A stretch of DNA of 11,350 nt from an uncultured Rhodanobacteraceae bacterium (GTDB taxonomy: Bacteria; Pseudomonadota; Gammaproteobacteria; Xanthomonadales; Rhodanobacteraceae): assembly GCA_937902695.1 (NCBI GenBank), contig CALFNI010000044.1:1-11350 (forward strand), in the 5' to 3' direction. Both the position numbers and the translations under genes were made by a program. Below the pieces are notes generated by a model. It worked only from the letters and a program-made list of their open reading frames with translations, was not told the DNA's origin and did not search any database. Shown piece after piece: positions 2,062-10,464 of this stretch (position 1 is its first letter; each line of letters begins with the position of its first letter).

Positions 2062-2394
2062 ATGCAGATCACGATTCAGGGTCATACGGTCGAAGTCACC
2101 CCCGCGCTACGCGATTACTGCACGAGCAAGTTCGAGCGGATTGCGCGCCACTTCGACCATCTGCATGAGCTCAGCATCGTGCTGGGCATCGAGAAGGTGC
2201 TGCACACGGCCGAGGCCACGATACGGTTCGCCGGCAAGAAATCGGCCCGCACGCTGCACGCGAACGCGACCGCAGCCGACATGTACGCGGCGATCGACGT
2301 GCTGGTCGACAAGATCGACAAGCAGGTGCTCAAGCACAAGGAAAAACTGACCGATCATCACGCCGAGACCGTGCGCGCGACGCGGTACAGCTAG
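2062..2394 (+). CDS. hpf: Ribosome hibernation promoting factor, short form (HPF/YfiA family)
   Basis: A 110-aa protein beginning MQITIQGHTVEVTPALRDY, typical of the S30AE/HPF family. AAGAGGAG ends 6 bases before ATG 2062, which fixes the start. The fold is beta-alpha-beta-beta-beta-alpha. Visible landmarks are the first helix with KFERIARHFDHL, the middle strands, and the last helix with DMYAAIDVLVDKIDKQ followed by basic KHKEKL. The protein binds the decoding region of the 30S subunit, blocking mRNA and tRNA sites and promoting 100S dimers in stationary phase. It lacks the extra C-terminal dimerisation domain of the long form, as expected for Gammaproteobacteria. It is the conserved neighbour of rpoN and ptsN. 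It ends in TAG, showing that TAG works as a normal stop in this genome. Confidence 0.96.
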   Translation: MQITIQGHTVEVTPALRDYCTSKFERIARHFDHLHELSIVLGIEKVLHTAEATIRFAGKKSARTLHANATAADMYAAIDVLVDKIDKQVLKHKEKLTDHHAETVRATRYS

Positions 2395-3043: not shown

Positions 3044-3176
3044 TGGGGGCCGCGCGGCGCGATTTCGCGCCCGCGCGGACGCCGCGTGGCCGGCATCCGT
3101 ACACTATGGCAGGCTGGCGCGGCCGATCGGCGCGCCGGCAGCGCGATCTCAGTCCGGTATTTCGGGGTTCCGCACG

Positions 3177-4127
3177 ATGGAGAGGCTTTCCGCCCGCCAG
3201 CTGTTCGACGCCGTCTCGGAGCGCATGGCGCTCCGCTGGGTCGCCGGCATGCGCGGCGAGAATCGCACGTTCGATCCGGGCACGACGCAGCAGCGCAGGC
3301 CCTCGCTCGTCGGCTATCTCAACATCATCTATCCGAACAAGGTGCAGATCATCGGCACCGAGGAGCTCAACTACCTCGACGGGCTCGATTCGCGCCAGCG
3401 CTGGGAGACGGTCGAGAAGATCATCGCGTACCAGCCGACCGCCGTGCTCGTGACGAAGGACCAGCCCATCCCCGCCGACCTTCGCCAGGCCGCCGAGGAA
3501 TCGCAGACGCCGCTCTGGATCAGCCCCAAGCGCGGCCACGAGCTCCTGACCTACCTGCAATACCATCTCGCGCGCGAGCTCGCGCGGCAGGTCACGCTGC
3601 ACGGCGTGCTTATGGAGGTCTATTCGATCGGCGTGCTGATCACCGGCGAGAGCGGCACCGGCAAGAGCGAGCTCGCGCTCGAGCTCATCACGCGCGGCCA
3701 TCGCCTCGTCGCCGACGATGCCCCCGAGTTCACGCTGATCGCGCCCGACGTCATCGACGGCAACTGCCCCGACATGCTGCGCGATCTCCTGGAAGTGCGC
3801 GGCCTCGGCGTCTTGAACGTTCGCGAAATGTTCGGCCAGACGGCCGTCAAACCGTCGAAATACCTGCGCCTCATCGTGCACCTGAAGCCGCAGAAGCTCG
3901 ACGCGCCCGGCGACGGCATGGCGCGCCTCACGGGCGACGTCGGCTATCGCGAGGTGCTCGACGTGCAGATTCCGTGCATCACGATCCCGGTCGCGCCGGG
4001 CCGCAACATCGCGGTCCTTGCGGAAGCGGCCGTGCGCAGCCATATGCTGAAGAGCAAGGGCTTCGATCCGGCCCAGACGTTCATCGACCGCCAGGCCCAC
4101 CAGTTGCGCCGGCTGCCCCCATGGTAG
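3177..4127 (+). CDS. hprK: HPr kinase/phosphorylase HprK
   Basis: A 316-aa bifunctional HPr(Ser) kinase/phosphorylase of normal size. The start at 3177 gives [15 protein letters not shown], the usual N-terminal domain opening, with GGGG at 3164-3167 as a plausible ribosome-binding site. The N-terminal domain (1 to about 130) precedes a conserved [14 protein letters not shown] segment. The Walker A loop GESGTGKS is at 157-164, followed by LVADDAPEF. The family signature [15 protein letters not shown] is at 206-220. It phosphorylates HPr on Ser46 with ATP or PPi and removes the phosphate with Pi. In Proteobacteria the Ser-phosphorylated form mainly tunes the phosphorelay. The target serine is present in the ptsH gene downstream (NAKSIMG). 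The 133-bp gap upstream (3044-3176) has no gene. The 3' end overlaps rapZ by 7 bases. Confidence 0.97.
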
Positions 4128-5035
4128 ACACGACCACCGACACCAGCACCGCGCCCACGGCCAAGCCGGCCCAGACCGCGGCCGAGCTCATCATCGTCAG
4201 CGGCCTTTCCGGCTCCGGCAAGACCGTCGCGCTGCGCACGCTCGAGGATCTCGGCTACTACTGCGTCGACAACCTGCCCTCCGCGCTGATGCCGGCGTTC
4301 GTGCAGGCGCTCTCGCAGGGCGCGGCGACGCTTCACGACAAGCTCGCGGTCGGCGTCGACGTGCGCAACCGCGCCGAGAACCTGAACCGCCTGCCGGCGA
4401 TCCTCGCCGAGCTCGCGCAGTCGCAGATCAGCTATCGCATCGTCTTCCTCGACACCCGCGACGACGTCCTCATCAAGCGCTATTCGGAAACGCGCCGCCG
4501 CCATCCGCTCTCGGCCGAAGGCCTTGGTCTCGCCGAAGCGATCGCGACGGAGCGGCGTCTCCTGCGGCCGATGGTCTCGATCGCCGATCGCGTCGTCGAC
4601 ACGAGCGATCTCAACGTCCATCAGCTGCGCCGCCTGATCATCAACGAGATGGGCCTCGCGGCCGGCGGCCTCACGCTGCTCTTCGAGTCGTTCGCCTACC
4701 GGCGCGGCGTGCCGACCGACGCCGATTTCGTCTTCGACGCGCGCTGCCTGCCCAATCCGCACTGGGATTCGCGCCTGCGACCGCTCTCGGGCAAGGACGC
4801 GCCGGTGCGCGAGTGGCTGGAAGCGAAGCCCGACGTCATCGCGTTCCGCGACGATCTGGCGAAGTTCCTCGACACGTGGCTGCCGCGCTTCGAAGCCGAA
4901 GGGCGCAGCTATGTCACGATCTGCATCGGCTGCACGGGCGGACGCCATCGCTCCGTCTACCTCGCCGAGCAGCTCGCCGATCACTACCGCGCGACGCACC
5001 GCCAGGTGCTGAGCTATCACCGGGAGCTCGAATGA
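4121..5035 (+). CDS. rapZ: RNase adapter protein RapZ (YvcJ family P-loop protein)
   Basis: A 304-aa protein with an N-terminal nucleotide-binding domain: Walker A GLSGSGKT is at 28-35 and a [13 protein letters not shown] stretch follows. The C-terminal domain ends with the conserved [20 protein letters not shown] region. The start ATG lies inside ATGGTAG, which contains the hprK stop, so translation is coupled. In E. coli RapZ senses glucosamine-6-phosphate and hands the sRNA GlmZ to RNase E to control GlmS. E. coli RapZ has a basic tail (KRKP) needed for RNA binding. Here the protein ends at HRELE without it, so binding of GlmY/GlmZ-type sRNA is doubtful and the nucleotide-binding or metabolite-sensing role may dominate. 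The first ~20 residues are a Thr/Ala-rich extension. The last 4 bases overlap the next gene. Confidence 0.96.
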
Positions 5036-5352
5036 GCGTCGGCGTCCTCCTCCTCACGCACGAATCGATGGGCGCCGCGCTCGTCTCGGCGGCGAGGCAC
5101 GTGCTCGGCCGCCTGCCGTTGCCGGTCGAAGTGCAGGAAGTCGCTGCGAATGCCGATCCCGACCAGATGCTGTTCGCCGCCGCCGCGCGCGCGCGCGACC
5201 TCGACGGCGGCGACGGCGTGCTCGTGCTCTCCGATCTCTACGGCGCGACGCCGTGCAACGTCGCCAACCGGCTGCCCAAGCTCGGCGTGCGCATGCACTG
5301 CGTCTCGGGCCTGAACCTGCCGATGCTGCTGCGCGTGCTCAACTACCCGTAA
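5032..5352 (+). CDS. PTS EIIA, mannose (Man) family, cut short by an in-frame stop
   Basis: This ORF encodes 106 aa. The ATG overlaps the rapZ stop (ATGA) and has GGGAG at 5022-5026, so the start is firm. [14 protein letters not shown] carries phospho-acceptor His10. LVLSDLYGATPCNVANR and SGLNLPMLLRVLNYP are strongly conserved in Man-family EIIA proteins of HPr-containing Beta- and Gammaproteobacteria. No EIIB/C/D partner is present, so the role is regulatory. The ORF ends at TAA 5350-5352 immediately after NYP, where relatives continue for about 24 residues. The missing part is present in the same frame downstream (see 5353-5424). A truncated product would lack the last helix and strand of the domain and may not fold. 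It could be a recent pseudogene, a read-through gene, or a sequence error. Confidence 0.85.
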   Translation: MSVGVLLLTHESMGAALVSAARHVLGRLPLPVEVQEVAANADPDQMLFAAAARARDLDGGDGVLVLSDLYGATPCNVANRLPKLGVRMHCVSGLNLPMLLRVLNYP

Positions 5353-5424
5353 CAATCGCTCGACGATCTGGCGCAGACCGCCGCGACGGGCGGCCGTGGA
5401 GGGATCTTCGTCGACACGCCGTAA
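5353..5424 (+). pseudogene. Stranded in-frame C-terminal tail of the EIIA(Man) gene
   Basis: Directly after the TAA at 5350-5352, the same frame reads QSLDDLAQTAATGGRGGIF and then VDTP, ending at a second TAA (5422-5424). This is the expected EIIA(Man) C-terminus: the family has an acidic residue, then a Q-x-L-(D/E)-E/D-L-A helix, then GGR-x-G. With the stop counted as a residue the gene is 130 codons long, the usual family length. The tail has the same codon bias as the gene in front of it. No start codon or ribosome-binding site precedes it, so it is expressed only by read-through. Confidence 0.8.
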
Positions 5425-5479
5425 CCTCTTTCACCGAGCGCCGTTTCGAAACCACACGCTCCGACCGACAAAGGCTCGC

Positions 5480-5689
5480 ATGCTCGAAAAGGACATCACG
5501 ATCACCAACCGCCTCGGCCTGCACGCGCGCGCGTCGGCCAAGCTCGTACAGGCACTGCACGGATTCCAGGCGGCGACGTCGATCGCGTATCGTGGCAAGG
5601 AAGTCAACGCGAAAAGCATCATGGGCGTCATGATGCTGGCCGCGGGGCGCGGCGCCGAGCTGAAGCGCCGCGCGGACGGACCCGACTAG
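5480..5689 (+). CDS. ptsH: Phosphocarrier protein HPr, cut short by an in-frame stop
   Basis: The ORF encodes 69 aa, whereas HPr is normally about 85-90. It begins MLEKDITITNRLGLHARAS, with His15 accepting phosphate from EI. Ser46, the HprK target, lies in NAKSIMGVMMLAAGRG. Both functional residues are therefore intact. TAG at 5687-5689 follows DGPD, just where relatives have Glu and then the last helix. The rest of the protein is present downstream in the same frame (5690-5749). Without helix 3 the open-faced beta sandwich would probably be unstable. The segment before the stop reads ELKRRADGPD, unusually basic for strand 4. There is only a weak ribosome-binding site (AAAGG at about 5470-5474). 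The 55-bp gap after the EIIA tail shows no promoter or gene. Confidence 0.87.
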   Translation: MLEKDITITNRLGLHARASAKLVQALHGFQAATSIAYRGKEVNAKSIMGVMMLAAGRGAELKRRADGPD

Positions 5690-5749
5690 GCCGCGGCGAT
5701 GGCGGCGATGGTCGATCTTTTCGAGCGCGAGTTCGAGGAAGGGCAATGA
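5690..5749 (+). pseudogene. Stranded in-frame C-terminal helix of HPr
   Basis: After TAG 5687-5689 the same frame continues AAAMAAMVDLFEREFEEGQ to TGA at 5747-5749. This is a good match to helix 3 and the acidic end of HPr proteins (family pattern E-A-x-A-M-x-x-x-V-x-L-F-E-x-x-F). Counting the stop as residue 70, the whole is exactly 89 residues, the standard HPr length. Two ATG codons (first at 5699) could in principle restart translation to give a 16-aa peptide, but none has a good ribosome-binding site. Confidence 0.8.
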
Positions 5750-5815: not shown

Positions 5816-7585
5816 GTGCGATTCACTCTTACCGGCAACGGCGCGGCGCGAGGCATGGCCCTCGGCCGCGCTCGCCTCGAGCAGCCGAGCCGGTACCTGA
5901 TCGACGAACGTCCGCTCGCGGCCGCCGAAGTCGAATCCGAGCTCGAACGCCTGACCCGCGCGCTCGTCCTCGCGCGTGCCGAGCTCGCCGCGCTCCGCGA
6001 AAAGCTGACCGGCGTCTTCGCGCATGAAGTCGGCGAGTTCATCGACGCGCACAGCCTGATCCTCGCCGACCGCGAGCTCAACGCCGGGCTCGCCGATCTC
6101 ATCAAGGTCGGCCGCTACCGCGCGAGCGCCGCGCTCAAGATGCAGCGCGACCGCCTGGTCGCGGTGTTCGAGGCGATGGACGATCCGTACCTGCGCAGCC
6201 GCAAGGAAGACATCGACCACGTCATCGGCCGCGTGCAGGCGGCGCTGGTCCGCGAATCGAGCGTCGAGGAGCGCAAGCTCGCCGCGCGCGTCGGCGAGAT
6301 CCTCGTCGGCGACACGGTCGCACCGTCCGAGCTCGTGCCGCTCGCCGAACACGGCGTGCTCGGCGTCGTGCTGACCTCGGGCAGCCCGCTCTCGCACTCG
6401 GCGATCCTCGCGCGCTCGCTGCGTCTGCCGATGATCGTCGCCGCGCACGATGCGCTTGCGCACATCCAGGACGACGACCTGATCCTGATCGACGGCGAGC
6501 GCGGCGAAGTCACCGTGCATCCGACCGCGCAGGACATCGCGCGCTACCGCGCCTGGCAACGCGACGTCGTGCAACGCGGCAAGCGCCTTGCGCTCCTTCG
6601 CGACGTCGAGACGCGCACGCGCGACGGCACGACGATCCAGCTCTATGCCAATGCGGAGCTCCCTGCCGACATCGCGCAGGCGCGCGCGTCCGGCGCGGCG
6701 GGCGTCGGGCTCTATCGCACCGAGTTCCTGTTCCTGCAACGCAAGGAAATCCCCAGCGAGGAAGAACAATTCCTCGCCTATCGCGACCTCGTGCTCGGCA
6801 TGGGCGGCCTCCCCGTCACGATCCGCACGCTCGATCTCGGTGCCGACAAGGCCGACGCGACCGGCATCGTGCTCGACGACGAGGACAATCCCGCGCTCGG
6901 CGTGCGCGGCGTGCGCCTCTCGCTGCGCCGGCCGCAGCTGCTGATCCTCCAGCTCCGCGCGATCCTGCGCGCGTCCAACTATGGGCCCGTGCGGATCCTC
7001 GTGCCGATGGTCTCGACGATCGAGGAAATGGCCGGCGTTCGCTATCTGCTCGACCAGGCCGCGCGCGACCTGCGCGCCGCGGGGCACGAGATCGCCGAGC
7101 ACATCGAGCTGGGCGCGATGATCGAGGTGCCCGCCGCCGCGATCGCGCTGCCGGGCATGATCAGGAAGCTCGATTTCATCGCGATCGGCACCAACGATCT
7201 CGTGCAGTACACGCTCGCGGTCGACCGCAACAACGACCATCTTGCGAATCTTTACGATCCCTTGCATCCGGCGGTGCTGCGTCTCCTCGCTTTCACGATC
7301 GCGACCGCGCGGCGCGCGGGCCGCCACGTCACGCTGTGCGGCGAGATGGCCGGCGACGTGCGCTACACGTGCCTCCTGCTCGCGCTCGGGCTCACCGAGT
7401 TCAGCATGCATCCCGGCCTCCTGCTCGATGGGTGGGAGCAAGGCAACGCCTGCGACCGCGGGCGCCTTCTCGCCGAGTCGAAGACGCTGCTCCGCGCGGT
7501 CACGCGCGAGGGCATCCTGCATGCCCTGAAGCGGCTCGAAGCCTGCGCCGAGAAGCCGGCCGACGGCGCCGCCGCCCCGGCCTGA
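5816..7585 (+). CDS. ptsI: PTS enzyme I (phosphoenolpyruvate–protein phosphotransferase)
   Basis: A 589-aa enzyme I, slightly longer than the E. coli form and without the GAF domain of PtsP. It starts with GTG at 5816 (MRFTLTGNGAARGMALGRAR), preceded by a GGGGCGAGAG stretch. The N-terminal HPr-binding and phospho-His domain carries active His194 in GSPLSHSAILARS. The C-terminal PEP-binding barrel has GLYRTEF at 298-304, GTNDLVQYTLAVDRNND from 458, and the catalytic Cys508 in TLCGEMAGD. It takes phosphate from PEP and passes it to His15 of HPr. All key residues are present, so the entry step of the relay looks functional even though its acceptor HPr, encoded just upstream, is interrupted. Confidence 0.97.
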   Translation: MRFTLTGNGAARGMALGRARLEQPSRYLIDERPLAAAEVESELERLTRALVLARAELAALREKLTGVFAHEVGEFIDAHSLILADRELNAGLADLIKVGRYRASAALKMQRDRLVAVFEAMDDPYLRSRKEDIDHVIGRVQAALVRESSVEERKLAARVGEILVGDTVAPSELVPLAEHGVLGVVLTSGSPLSHSAILARSLRLPMIVAAHDALAHIQDDDLILIDGERGEVTVHPTAQDIARYRAWQRDVVQRGKRLALLRDVETRTRDGTTIQLYANAELPADIAQARASGAAGVGLYRTEFLFLQRKEIPSEEEQFLAYRDLVLGMGGLPVTIRTLDLGADKADATGIVLDDEDNPALGVRGVRLSLRRPQLLILQLRAILRASNYGPVRILVPMVSTIEEMAGVRYLLDQAARDLRAAGHEIAEHIELGAMIEVPAAAIALPGMIRKLDFIAIGTNDLVQYTLAVDRNNDHLANLYDPLHPAVLRLLAFTIATARRAGRHVTLCGEMAGDVRYTCLLLALGLTEFSMHPGLLLDGWEQGNACDRGRLLAESKTLLRAVTREGILHALKRLEACAEKPADGAAAPA

Positions 7586-7661: not shown

Positions 7662-8438
7662 TTGGATATCGCGGACATCGCAAGGAAGGCCAGCGCGTAC
7701 CGCGTCGAGCTCGACGCGGTGAAGCAGCGCCTCGCGCCGGCCGATTACGGCTGGTACCCGTACGGGACGCTGTCGAACTTCCACCTGCTCGACCAGCTGC
7801 TGCAAGGCCCGAACCGCGCGCTGCTCGATCTCGCCGGCGATGCGCCGATCGCCGACATCGGCGCCGCCGACGGCGACACGGCGTTCTTCCTCGAATCGCT
7901 CGGCCATCGCGCACACGCGGTCGACTATCCGCCGACGAACTACAACAGCTGCCGCGGCATCCGCCTCCTGAAGGAAACGCTCGGCTCGTCGATCGAGATC
8001 CGCGAGGTCGATCTCGACCGGCATTTCGAGCTGCCGGGCGAACGCTACGGCCTCGCGTTCTTCCTCGGCATCCTCTATCACCTGAAGAATCCGTTCGGCG
8101 CGCTCGAAAGCCTCGCCGGCGTCGCGCGCCACGCGGTCGTCTCGACGCGCGTCGTGCGCTACAACCTCGCGCCGAAGGCGCGCGGCTCGAACACGGTCAA
8201 TCGCGAGCGCGTCGAGCTGCGCACGGTGCCGGCCGCATATCTCGTCGCCGCCGACGAGACGAACAACGACGCGACCAACTACTGGATGTTCTCCGAAGCG
8301 GGCCTGCGCCGCACGCTCCATCGCGCCGGCTGGGACGTGCTCGACTTCACGACGTTCGGCAACGCATCGACGTCGGATCCGGCGACCGGCGAAGGCGACG
8401 AGCGCGCATTCTGCCTGCTGCGCAGCCGGCTCTGCTGA
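7662..8438 (+). CDS. SAM-dependent methyltransferase, class I (CmoB/DUF1698-like)
   Basis: A 258-aa protein starting with TTG at 7662, with GCGAGGA at 7651-7657 in the right place. An N-terminal helical part leads to WYPYGTLSNFHLLDQLL (31-47), a pattern shared with CmoB-like methyltransferases. Motif I for SAM binding, IADIGAADGD, is at 63-72. The acidic residue after strand 2 is Asp88 (AVDYP). GILYHLKNP at 136-144 is the CmoB-like motif IV/V area. It is shorter than true CmoB (about 320 aa), so the tRNA cmo5U role should not be transferred. Proteins like this are often found in glycan or secondary-metabolite loci. The substrate is unknown. It is followed after 13 bp by a membrane protein, probably in the same transcript. 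Base and codon use match the neighbouring genes. Confidence 0.8.
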   Translation: MDIADIARKASAYRVELDAVKQRLAPADYGWYPYGTLSNFHLLDQLLQGPNRALLDLAGDAPIADIGAADGDTAFFLESLGHRAHAVDYPPTNYNSCRGIRLLKETLGSSIEIREVDLDRHFELPGERYGLAFFLGILYHLKNPFGALESLAGVARHAVVSTRVVRYNLAPKARGSNTVNRERVELRTVPAAYLVAADETNNDATNYWMFSEAGLRRTLHRAGWDVLDFTTFGNASTSDPATGEGDERAFCLLRSRLC

Positions 8439-8451
8439 CGCCGCGCGCGCG

Positions 8452-10464
8452 ATGAACGCCGCCGCCGGTTCCCGCGCACTGAACGGTTTCGAATCGACCG
8501 CGTGGCGCCGGCGCATTGCGGCGCACGCGCCGGCGCTGGTCGTCGCGTCCGCGCTGATCGTCTTCGCGTTCGCGTATGCGATGGACTGGCGCCTGCCCGG
8601 CCTCTACATGGACGCGGTCAATCCGGAATACATCATCCCCGGCATCTTCGATCCGAAGGCGCCGGGGCATCATCCGTGGATCGTGCCCGGCAACGTGATC
8701 CTCGGCCGGTTCCCGCTGTTCACCGGCCAGATCTACCACGGCAGCACGCAGATCTATTTCGCGCTGCCGCTGATGGCCCTCTTCGGCGTCGACGTCGGCA
8801 CGCTGCGCATCACGCAGGGCGCGGCCGGCTTCCTGATCGTGCTGCTGCTCGCGCAATTCATGCGCCGCGCCGACGCGCCGGCGAAGAGCGCGATCGCGGC
8901 GGCGGCGCTGGTGCCGCTCGCGCTGGATCCGTCGTTCGTCGTCGCGCTCCGCACGCAGGCCTACAGCTGCCTGTTTCCGATGATGCTGCTGCTCGGCGCG
9001 ATGCTGCTCCTGCGCGACTGGGAGTCGAAGCCGCGGCCCGCGCTGCGCCTCGTCGCGAGCGGCCTCCTGTTCGGTCTTTCGGTCTTCAGCTATTTCATCT
9101 TCGCGTTCTTCTTCCCGGCGCTGGTCTGGCTGTTCCTGACCGGACGCACGCAGAACGCGCGCCGCGATCTCGGCTTTGCCGCGCTCTGGCTCTTCGCGTG
9201 CCTCGCCGGCTATCTGCCGGTGATCGGCGGCCTTTTCCGGGTCAGCCAGGCGCTCGGCAGCTTCGAGGCGATGCTGCGCTGGCTGCACGGCCACAGCGAC
9301 AGCCTGCGTCCGCTCGGCGATGCCGGCAGCGCGATGGATCGCGTCCGCACGATGTCCGTGGTCGCGCGCGGCGTGCTCACCGGCCGCTGGCCGTGGCTCA
9401 TGGTCCTGCAGCACCACGCCGGCGATTTCACCGGTTCGCTGAAGGCCGCGCTGCTCGTACTCGTGCCGGTCGGCACCTTGATCGTCGCGCGGGCGGTGCC
9501 GCGCGACGACCGGCGCGCGATCGCGACGCCGCTCGTCTTCGTCGTCTCGTTCCTCGCCTGCGCAGCGGTCTTCGGCAACCGGCTCGACGGCCATCACTAC
9601 ACGACGATCGTGCCGTTCCTCTATGCCGCGTTCGGCGCAGCCTGCGCGGCGTGGTGGACACGGCCGCGGGAGACCGCGACCGCACGCGTCGCAGCCGCGT
9701 CCGGATTCGCGTTGCTGGCCGTCGTCGCCGTCATGAACACGTTCAATCTCGCGCATTTCCATCGCGATCTCGAGGCGAGCGGCGGCGCGGCGATGTACTC
9801 GGACGCGATCGACCGCTTCGCGCATCGCGTCGCCCGGGACGATCCCGATGCGACCGCGTATTTCCCGGACTGGGGCTACGTGATGCCGTTCGTGTTCGTC
9901 ACGCGCGCCAGGCTCGCATGGCTCGACAGCGTCGATCCGGATCGCATCGCGCGCGAGAGCTGCACGGGCAAGCCGCAGGTCGTCGTCTTCACCGGCGCCG
10001 GCAACGCCGCGAAGTTCGACGTCATCGCCTCGCTCGCGCATCAGCCGCCGCCGGCAATCACCACCTGGGCCCAACGCGACGGCGTGCCGGTGTTCCAGTC
10101 CGCGCGCTACGCGCCGCGCACCGACTGCACGGATATCCCGCCGGCAAGCGCCCCGCCGGCGCCAGAGATCGGGCCCGGGCCCGCGATCGCGGTTGCGCCG
10201 GCGGCCGCATCCGATTGTGATTTCCTGTCGCCGTTCCGCGCGACCGCGCGCTGGGATGCCGGCAACCCCGCGCTCAGCTACGTCGAAGCCTGGATCGCCG
10301 CGCCCGGGGCCAAGTCCAAGCCGTGGACCGGCGGCGCGGAGCGCTCGGAATATTCGACGGCGCAGTGGGCGACGCCCGGCATGGCGTTCGTGCTGATCGA
10401 CCCGGTCACGCAAAAGGCGCTCGCGCGCACCGAGATCGCACGCATCGCCTGCCCCGTGCGCTGA
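8452..10464 (+). CDS. Polytopic membrane protein, possible GT-C-type glycosyltransferase with soluble C-terminal domain
   Basis: A 670-aa protein that I do not recognise as a named family. After a short cytoplasmic N-terminus a first membrane segment lies at about 26-44. It is followed by an outside-type loop with YMDAVNPEY (Asp54, Glu59) and a long region to about 95. Acidic residues in the first loop are typical of GT-C glycosyltransferases that use polyprenyl-phosphate sugars. About nine or ten further hydrophobic segments fill residues 100-430, including ones near 103-113, 122-135, 145-166, 172-187, 198-229, 240-262, 331-347, 358-374, 384-400 and 412-428. Residues 440-670 look soluble, with a Pro/Ala-rich linker near 562-585. 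The upstream methyltransferase is a likely partner, so glycan modification is a reasonable but unproven guess. There is no clear ribosome-binding site, so coupling to the gene upstream is likely. Confidence 0.7.
   Translation: MNAAAGSRALNGFESTAWRRRIAAHAPALVVASALIVFAFAYAMDWRLPGLYMDAVNPEYIIPGIFDPKAPGHHPWIVPGNVILGRFPLFTGQIYHGSTQIYFALPLMALFGVDVGTLRITQGAAGFLIVLLLAQFMRRADAPAKSAIAAAALVPLALDPSFVVALRTQAYSCLFPMMLLLGAMLLLRDWESKPRPALRLVASGLLFGLSVFSYFIFAFFFPALVWLFLTGRTQNARRDLGFAALWLFACLAGYLPVIGGLFRVSQALGSFEAMLRWLHGHSDSLRPLGDAGSAMDRVRTMSVVARGVLTGRWPWLMVLQHHAGDFTGSLKAALLVLVPVGTLIVARAVPRDDRRAIATPLVFVVSFLACAAVFGNRLDGHHYTTIVPFLYAAFGAACAAWWTRPRETATARVAAASGFALLAVVAVMNTFNLAHFHRDLEASGGAAMYSDAIDRFAHRVARDDPDATAYFPDWGYVMPFVFVTRARLAWLDSVDPDRIARESCTGKPQVVVFTGAGNAAKFDVIASLAHQPPPAITTWAQRDGVPVFQSARYAPRTDCTDIPPASAPPAPEIGPGPAIAVAPAAASDCDFLSPFRATARWDAGNPALSYVEAWIAAPGAKSKPWTGGAERSEYSTAQWATPGMAFVLIDPVTQKALARTEIARIACPVR

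Follow-up and report, generated by a model that had tools for sequence, protein, structure and literature searches.

Organisation of the locus

The window, a stretch of 11,350 nucleotides, is the entire contig C44 of G000, a Dokdonella-like assembly of 3.17 Mb in 678 contigs that is 77% complete. Judged by EI, its nearest named relatives are records of Dokdonella, Rhodanobacteraceae and other MAGs. The plus strand carries, in order, the end of lptB, then rpoN, hpf, ptsN, hprK, rapZ, EIIA(Man) and HPr, followed by ptsI (encoding EI), a methyltransferase-like gene, a gene whose protein has no Pfam match and, at the contig edge, an mgtE-like gene (Table 1). The names lptB, hpf, ptsN, rapZ and mgtE were assigned by eye or taken from a first-pass annotation of the same DNA. 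In regulatory phosphorelays, phosphate passes from EI to HPr and on to EIIA, and HPr is also a substrate of HprK. The terminal codons of hprK (TAG), hpf (TAG) and lptB (TAA) agreed with those annotated previously.

Table 1. Features of the window and of the second interrupted gene found in the assembly.
Feature	Position	Strand	Description
hpf	2062-2394	+	
hprK	3177..4127	+	Intact frame, probable ATG start; PF02603 and PF07475 on frame 3144-4124
hprK, private codon	3975-3977	+	Gln to Cys
rapZ	4121..5035	+	Frame intact; name from the first-pass annotation
EIIA(Man) frame upstream of stop	5032..5349	+	106 codons; PF03610, E=1.4e-14
In-frame TAA of EIIA(Man)	5350..5352	+	Codon 107 of 130, placed by codon alignment with relatives
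EIIA(Man) frame downstream of stop	5353..5424	+	Well conserved; ends in TAA at 5422-5424
HPr frame upstream of stop	5480..5686	+	69 codons; PF00381, E=9.9e-23; residues 1-56 identical to P0003
Inverted repeat in 3' part of HPr	5647-5655 / 5665-5673		Perfect, 9 bases; arms are exact reverse complements
3' part of HPr with private differences	5648..5737	+	Every one of the six private differences from the four most similar HPr proteins falls here
In-frame TAG of HPr	5687..5689	+	Codon 70 of 89, placed by codon alignment with relatives
HPr frame downstream of stop	5690..5749	+	Conserved; ends in TGA at 5747-5749
ptsI (EI)	5816..7585	+	Open, 589 codons; PF05524, PF00391, PF02896
EI patch	7427..7444	+	Residues 538, 539, 540 and 543 privately changed, four in six codons
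Methyltransferase-like gene	7662-8438	+	3' of ptsI
Gene for 670-aa protein	8452-10464	+	3' of ptsI
ABC-transporter ATPase (L255, contig C388 of G000)	8269-9000		Interior TAG at 8608 within a patch of changed codons

EIIA(Man) and HPr are each interrupted by a stop

Neither EIIA(Man) nor HPr forms a complete frame. The two in-frame stops lie 337 bases apart, more than the approximately 260 bases first estimated, and both are real features of the record at Glu-type sites, as the first-pass annotation had proposed. In codon alignments with 20 relatives, the EIIA(Man) stop column holds Glu in 19 and Asp in one (G003), and the HPr column Glu in 19 and Ala in one (G008). Among closer proteins the site was Glu in all 11 aligned EIIA(Man) homologues and in all 12 aligned HPr homologues. 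Either stop is one base away from the relatives' commonest codon, again in line with the earlier claim. EIIA(Man) scored 54.6 bits against PF03610, above the curated cut-off of 21.4, and truncated HPr scored 80.4 bits against PF00381 (cut-off 23). HPr also retained the motifs GLHARASAKLV and KSIMG; the roles of its His-15 and Ser-46 are described in the available text of PMC6916182.

Homologues were sought in a set of 5.8 billion predicted proteins, grouped into clusters at 90% identity, of which the best 120 were listed; with such clustering, a same-species copy could sit hidden within a cluster. Among these best 120 clusters, the closest HPr homologues (P0001-P0003) were 90-91% identical, the closest EIIA(Man) homologue (P0121) 93% identical over the read-through protein, and the closest EI homologues (P0241-P0244) 92-94% identical. 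The EIIA(Man) and HPr homologues at 90-93% identity were intact. Identity of EIIA(Man) to the relatives compared ranged from 58 to 93%. We found no same-species sister genome, and no second copy of HPr or EIIA(Man) within the 77% complete G000.

Private changes are packed in HPr and EI

Private differences in HPr, EI and EIIA(Man) were counted at the columns that are uniform among the four closest homologues. HPr had six in 81 columns (L57R, L63R, the stop at E70, E71A, K84E and D86E), all within its last 33 codons (permutation P=0.023, with the width picked post hoc). Ala at residue 71 is natural in some other Dokdonella. The sequence downstream of the stops had been described as undamaged, which fails for HPr: K84E and D86E lie 3' of its stop, and L57R and L63R lie 5'. 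EI had been called whole and its frame is indeed open, but four of its 13 private differences in 512 columns are packed into six conserved codons (permutation P=0.00085), at columns invariant across nine aligned homologues. The four private differences of EIIA(Man) in 109 columns were unclustered (permutation P=0.39). Changes thus look packed in HPr and EI and not in EIIA(Man), a comparison of evenness made on small numbers and at the protein level.

The inverted repeat in the 3' part of HPr covers both Leu-to-Arg codons. Its arms appear in the predicted fold, where, read by eye, the altered bases pair with the opposite arm. The stretch folded no better than its shuffles (z -0.29), and hairpins are expected there because its GC content is extreme. 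When a recoding structure was sought in four folded stretches, three around the changes and one control, none was stabler than shuffles. The repeat may be a mutation hotspot or may trigger sequencing errors, and favours neither origin.

We also counted private changes at protein columns invariant across 19 or 20 more distant relatives, a set that includes neither stop column. G000 had 2 in 138 columns for rpoN, 4 in 28 for hpf, 1 in 41 for ptsN, 1 in 115 for hprK, 1 in 127 for rapZ, 0 in 76 for EIIA(Man), 3 in 49 for HPr and 3 in 243 for EI. For every gene except HPr, some other genome had a larger share of private changes than G000; for HPr the highest count in another genome was 1 in 47. HPr therefore stands out by this measure and EIIA(Man) does not. 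The changes in hpf are K6Q, Q9T, K49T and R90L; they tell against damage confined to the pathway, and genome G019 has 5 in 29 for the same gene. In hprK, the private Cys codon differs from the relatives' commonest codon at all three bases, at a site that is Gln in 20 of 20 aligned relatives.

Interior stops are rare elsewhere in the genome

To survey the rest of the assembly, a coding-potential scan was run on 99 G000 contigs (467,526 bases) picked regardless of stops, with 30 codons upstream, 18 downstream and a threshold of 0.1. The window was omitted from the count, as was contig C388, since the latter had been fetched for its known stop. Sensitivity, estimated on five window genes, was 0.84. 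Six candidate sites emerged and all were judged ordinary gene ends or junctions, the sixth (L287) from its flanks only; gene names at the junctions were recognised by eye. There was thus no convincing interior stop in approximately 468 kb of other G000 contigs. Control scans of five relatives gave 0, 2, 2, 0 and 2 hits (6 in 366,672 bases), and the candidate rate in G000 is therefore no higher. Looser settings gave up to 22 raw candidate sites in 488,058 bases, window and C388 included. The scan recovered the EIIA(Man) and C388 stops and missed that of HPr, so short genes are under-counted.

The first-pass annotation had named similar stops scattered in many housekeeping genes as the sign of assembly error. 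This sign was absent from the scanned contigs, a result still compatible with local patches of error. Its view that genome-wide reassignment is unlikely agrees with the same scan, and no stop was found serving as a sense codon in many conserved genes. The 16 tRNA matches in the 77% complete genome included none with an anticodon reading TAA or TAG. By chance, a rough upper bound of 0.007 stops would be expected in the 219 codons of the two genes, and two or more would occur with P of about 2e-5, assuming independence. That estimate depends on the coding density assumed and on the sensitivity estimated for the scan. It takes no account of the choice of this window for its stops, a choice that makes any such probability optimistic; numbers for short genes are also small, and several tests were chosen post hoc.

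The one other interior stop found lies in the ABC-transporter ATPase gene on C388, where the TAG at 8608 was found in 1 of the 42 PF00005 matches listed for G000. None of the 119 listed PF00005 matches of G001, G003 and G010 had an interior stop, nor did the best match of this ATPase in any of the 12 relatives compared. Seven of its 10 changed codons, stop included, fall within 24 of 244 codons (P=0.0002, a test run on G000 only with the width picked post hoc). G000 had 11 private changes in 398 columns of this gene, the same number as one relative; the changes in the patch were mostly multi-base, and G/T exchanges made up 2 of the 11. Interior stops are thus rare in G000, and at both sites found the interrupted genes contain or adjoin patches of unusual changes.

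Nucleotide spectrum of the private changes

The spectrum of private changes was compared between G000 and 20 other genomes in eight window genes, using nucleotide columns that do not vary among the other sequences. Over 2646 such columns G000 had 47 private changes, an unremarkable total given that the 20 others ranged from 3 to 68. G/T exchanges in both directions showed a modest excess, with 9 of 47 in G000 against 21 of 498 in the others (P=4e-4). Omitting the two stops left 7 of 45 (P=0.005). Two EI changes of this class, at 7451 and 7469, are common to close homologues; with these also omitted, from G000 only, the count was 5 of 43 (P=0.047). The excess is therefore only marginal once stops and natural changes are left out. 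T>G alone accounted for 4 of 47 changes against 1 of 498 (P=2e-4), and transitions were fewer in G000 (13 of 47 against 266 of 498, P=7e-4). A/C exchange was not enriched (6 of 47 against 80 of 498, P=0.68).

Oxidative or ancient-DNA damage was considered separately. The relevant classes, G>T plus C>A, made up 8 of 47 changes in G000 and 73 of 498 elsewhere (P=0.67), with no enrichment. The earlier suggestion of damage-type G-to-T errors is therefore kept in one part, as local error fits best, and set aside in the other, the oxidative spectrum.

The relay is present or absent as a whole among relatives

Profile searches of 41 genomes matched PF00381 in 37, G000 among them, and only the G000 match contained an interior stop. 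PF03610 was likewise matched in 37 of 41 and showed no interior stop, the G000 match ending short of its TAA. PF05524 and PF07475 were each matched in 37 of 41. The same four genomes (G007, G030, G032 and G040) were without all of EI, HPr, EIIA(Man) and HprK, so that in this set a genome has either the entire relay or none of it, and none of the relatives showed a half-lost state. G032 is approximately 99% complete, and absence of the whole cluster thus seems to occur in the order. PF00562 (rpoB), meant as a yardstick of error, had no match in G000.

Origin of the two stops

We see roughly an even chance that both stops lie within short patches of wrong bases in a fragmentary, metagenome-type assembly, and rank this local consensus error first, modestly ahead of real recent decay. 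Several bases would be miscalled within tens of bases, and such a patch inside a gene would give radical missense changes and an occasional stop. On this reading the living bacterium would have intact EIIA(Man), HPr and EI, acting as the usual regulatory phosphorelay. Consensus errors in draft and metagenome assemblies create spurious pseudogenes. The present case resembles these in its single-base stops in conserved genes, its fragmentary assembly and its intact relatives; it differs in the rarity of stops across the contigs sampled and in the position of the HPr and C388 stops within patches. HPr follows P0003 up to residue 56 and then departs from its closest homologues six times in 33 codons. 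Even decay would not squeeze four EI changes into six codons of an open gene, and the only other interior stop found likewise lies among crowded codon changes.

The excess of G/T and T>G changes also points to miscalled bases. According to the available text of PMC4381044 and PMC6053417, one channel or laser of Illumina instruments reads both G and T, which get confused, and the former reports inverted repeats and GGC as error triggers on these machines. This comparison would apply if G000 was sequenced on such a machine. The fit is imperfect: PMC4381044 gives A and C as more error-prone than G and T, yet A/C exchange was not enriched here, and T to G is among the rarest errors in the data that PMC6053417 itself presents. 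Further points against error are the shrinking of the G/T excess after omissions, the mostly multi-base changes of the C388 patch and the unclustered differences of EIIA(Man). Because some 468 kb of other contigs held no convincing interior stop, any errors would have to be local. The three most damaged genes belong to one pathway, with rpoN, ptsN, hprK and rapZ little affected, which fits decay better than error.

Real recent decay of the EI-HPr-EIIA(Man) branch is thus a serious competitor, to which we give appreciably less than an even chance. HPr and EIIA(Man) would be truncated pseudogenes and EI would be starting to decay, with HprK, RapZ, EIIA-Ntr and RpoN kept. A Dokdonella lineage may then have been sampled mid-way in shedding these three proteins, HPr and EIIA(Man) first and EI following, with HprK intact, a picture that we hold slightly more tentatively still. 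The peak of damage in three adjacent genes, the excess of private HPr changes at invariant columns, the four genomes without the whole set and the rarity of interior stops elsewhere in G000 are all consistent with decay. Loss may also be tolerated, as deletion of ptsH in Xanthomonas campestris, which has a similar cluster, gave wild-type phenotypes in the part of PMC6916182 available. Against decay, the four families are co-present or co-absent across the 41 genomes, and the intact first 56 residues of HPr and the packed changes of EI are unlike an even process.

Genuine clustered mutations, multi-base or templated by a hairpin, in otherwise functional genes are an improbable origin. In their favour stands the perfect inverted repeat, whose predicted fold pairs the altered bases of the two Leu-to-Arg codons (L57R, L63R) with the facing arm. 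However, the stretch folds no better than its shuffles, hairpins are expected at such GC content, and inverted repeats provoke sequencing errors as well, according to the accessible text of PMC4381044. Clustered mutation would also leave EIIA(Man) unexplained.

Read-through of both stops, by a suppressor tRNA or a programmed mechanism, would yield some full-length HPr and EIIA(Man) and would account for the frame conserved past either stop; this earlier idea went unsupported and is highly improbable. Other conserved positions of HPr, before as well as after the stop, are privately changed too, and a read-through product would probably still be damaged. The 16 tRNA matches of the incomplete genome include no suppressor, the two stops are different codons, and no HPr stop occurs in any other genome searched.

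Comparison with known systems

The window bacterium and Xanthomonas campestris are presumably related. The incomplete PTS cluster of the latter (XC_1304-1309) comprises PtsI, PtsH, two IIA-like proteins and HprK in the available description (PMC6916182), and the window likewise holds EI, HPr, Man-type and Ntr-type IIA proteins and HprK. The X. campestris genes are described there as working, whereas two carry stops in the G000 record. If the stops are real, the locus would show the dismantling of a regulatory PTS. HprK would be left without its known substrate, which would offer a direct test for other HprK targets.

A second phosphorelay can be compared, one whose EI and HPr we take to be of the Ntr type and whose bearers we assume to form a distant group. 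As far as its description in PMC2937029 is available, it too has HprK and a protein resembling EIIA(Man) but lacks a permease, and it differs in that its genes are described as highly conserved. If the stops are errors, they serve as a caution that two single-base stops in linked genes can mimic coordinated loss. The patch in the open neighbouring gene, EI, would then point to the consensus itself.

Genes downstream of ptsI

The methyltransferase-like gene 3' of ptsI scored 21 bits against PF13489, under the cut-off of 27, and the 670-aa protein encoded after it had no Pfam match. In comparisons of short flanks, by which absence is not proven, sequence similar to the methyltransferase-like gene was present in 2 of 20 relatives and sequence similar to that of the 670-aa protein in 1 of 20.
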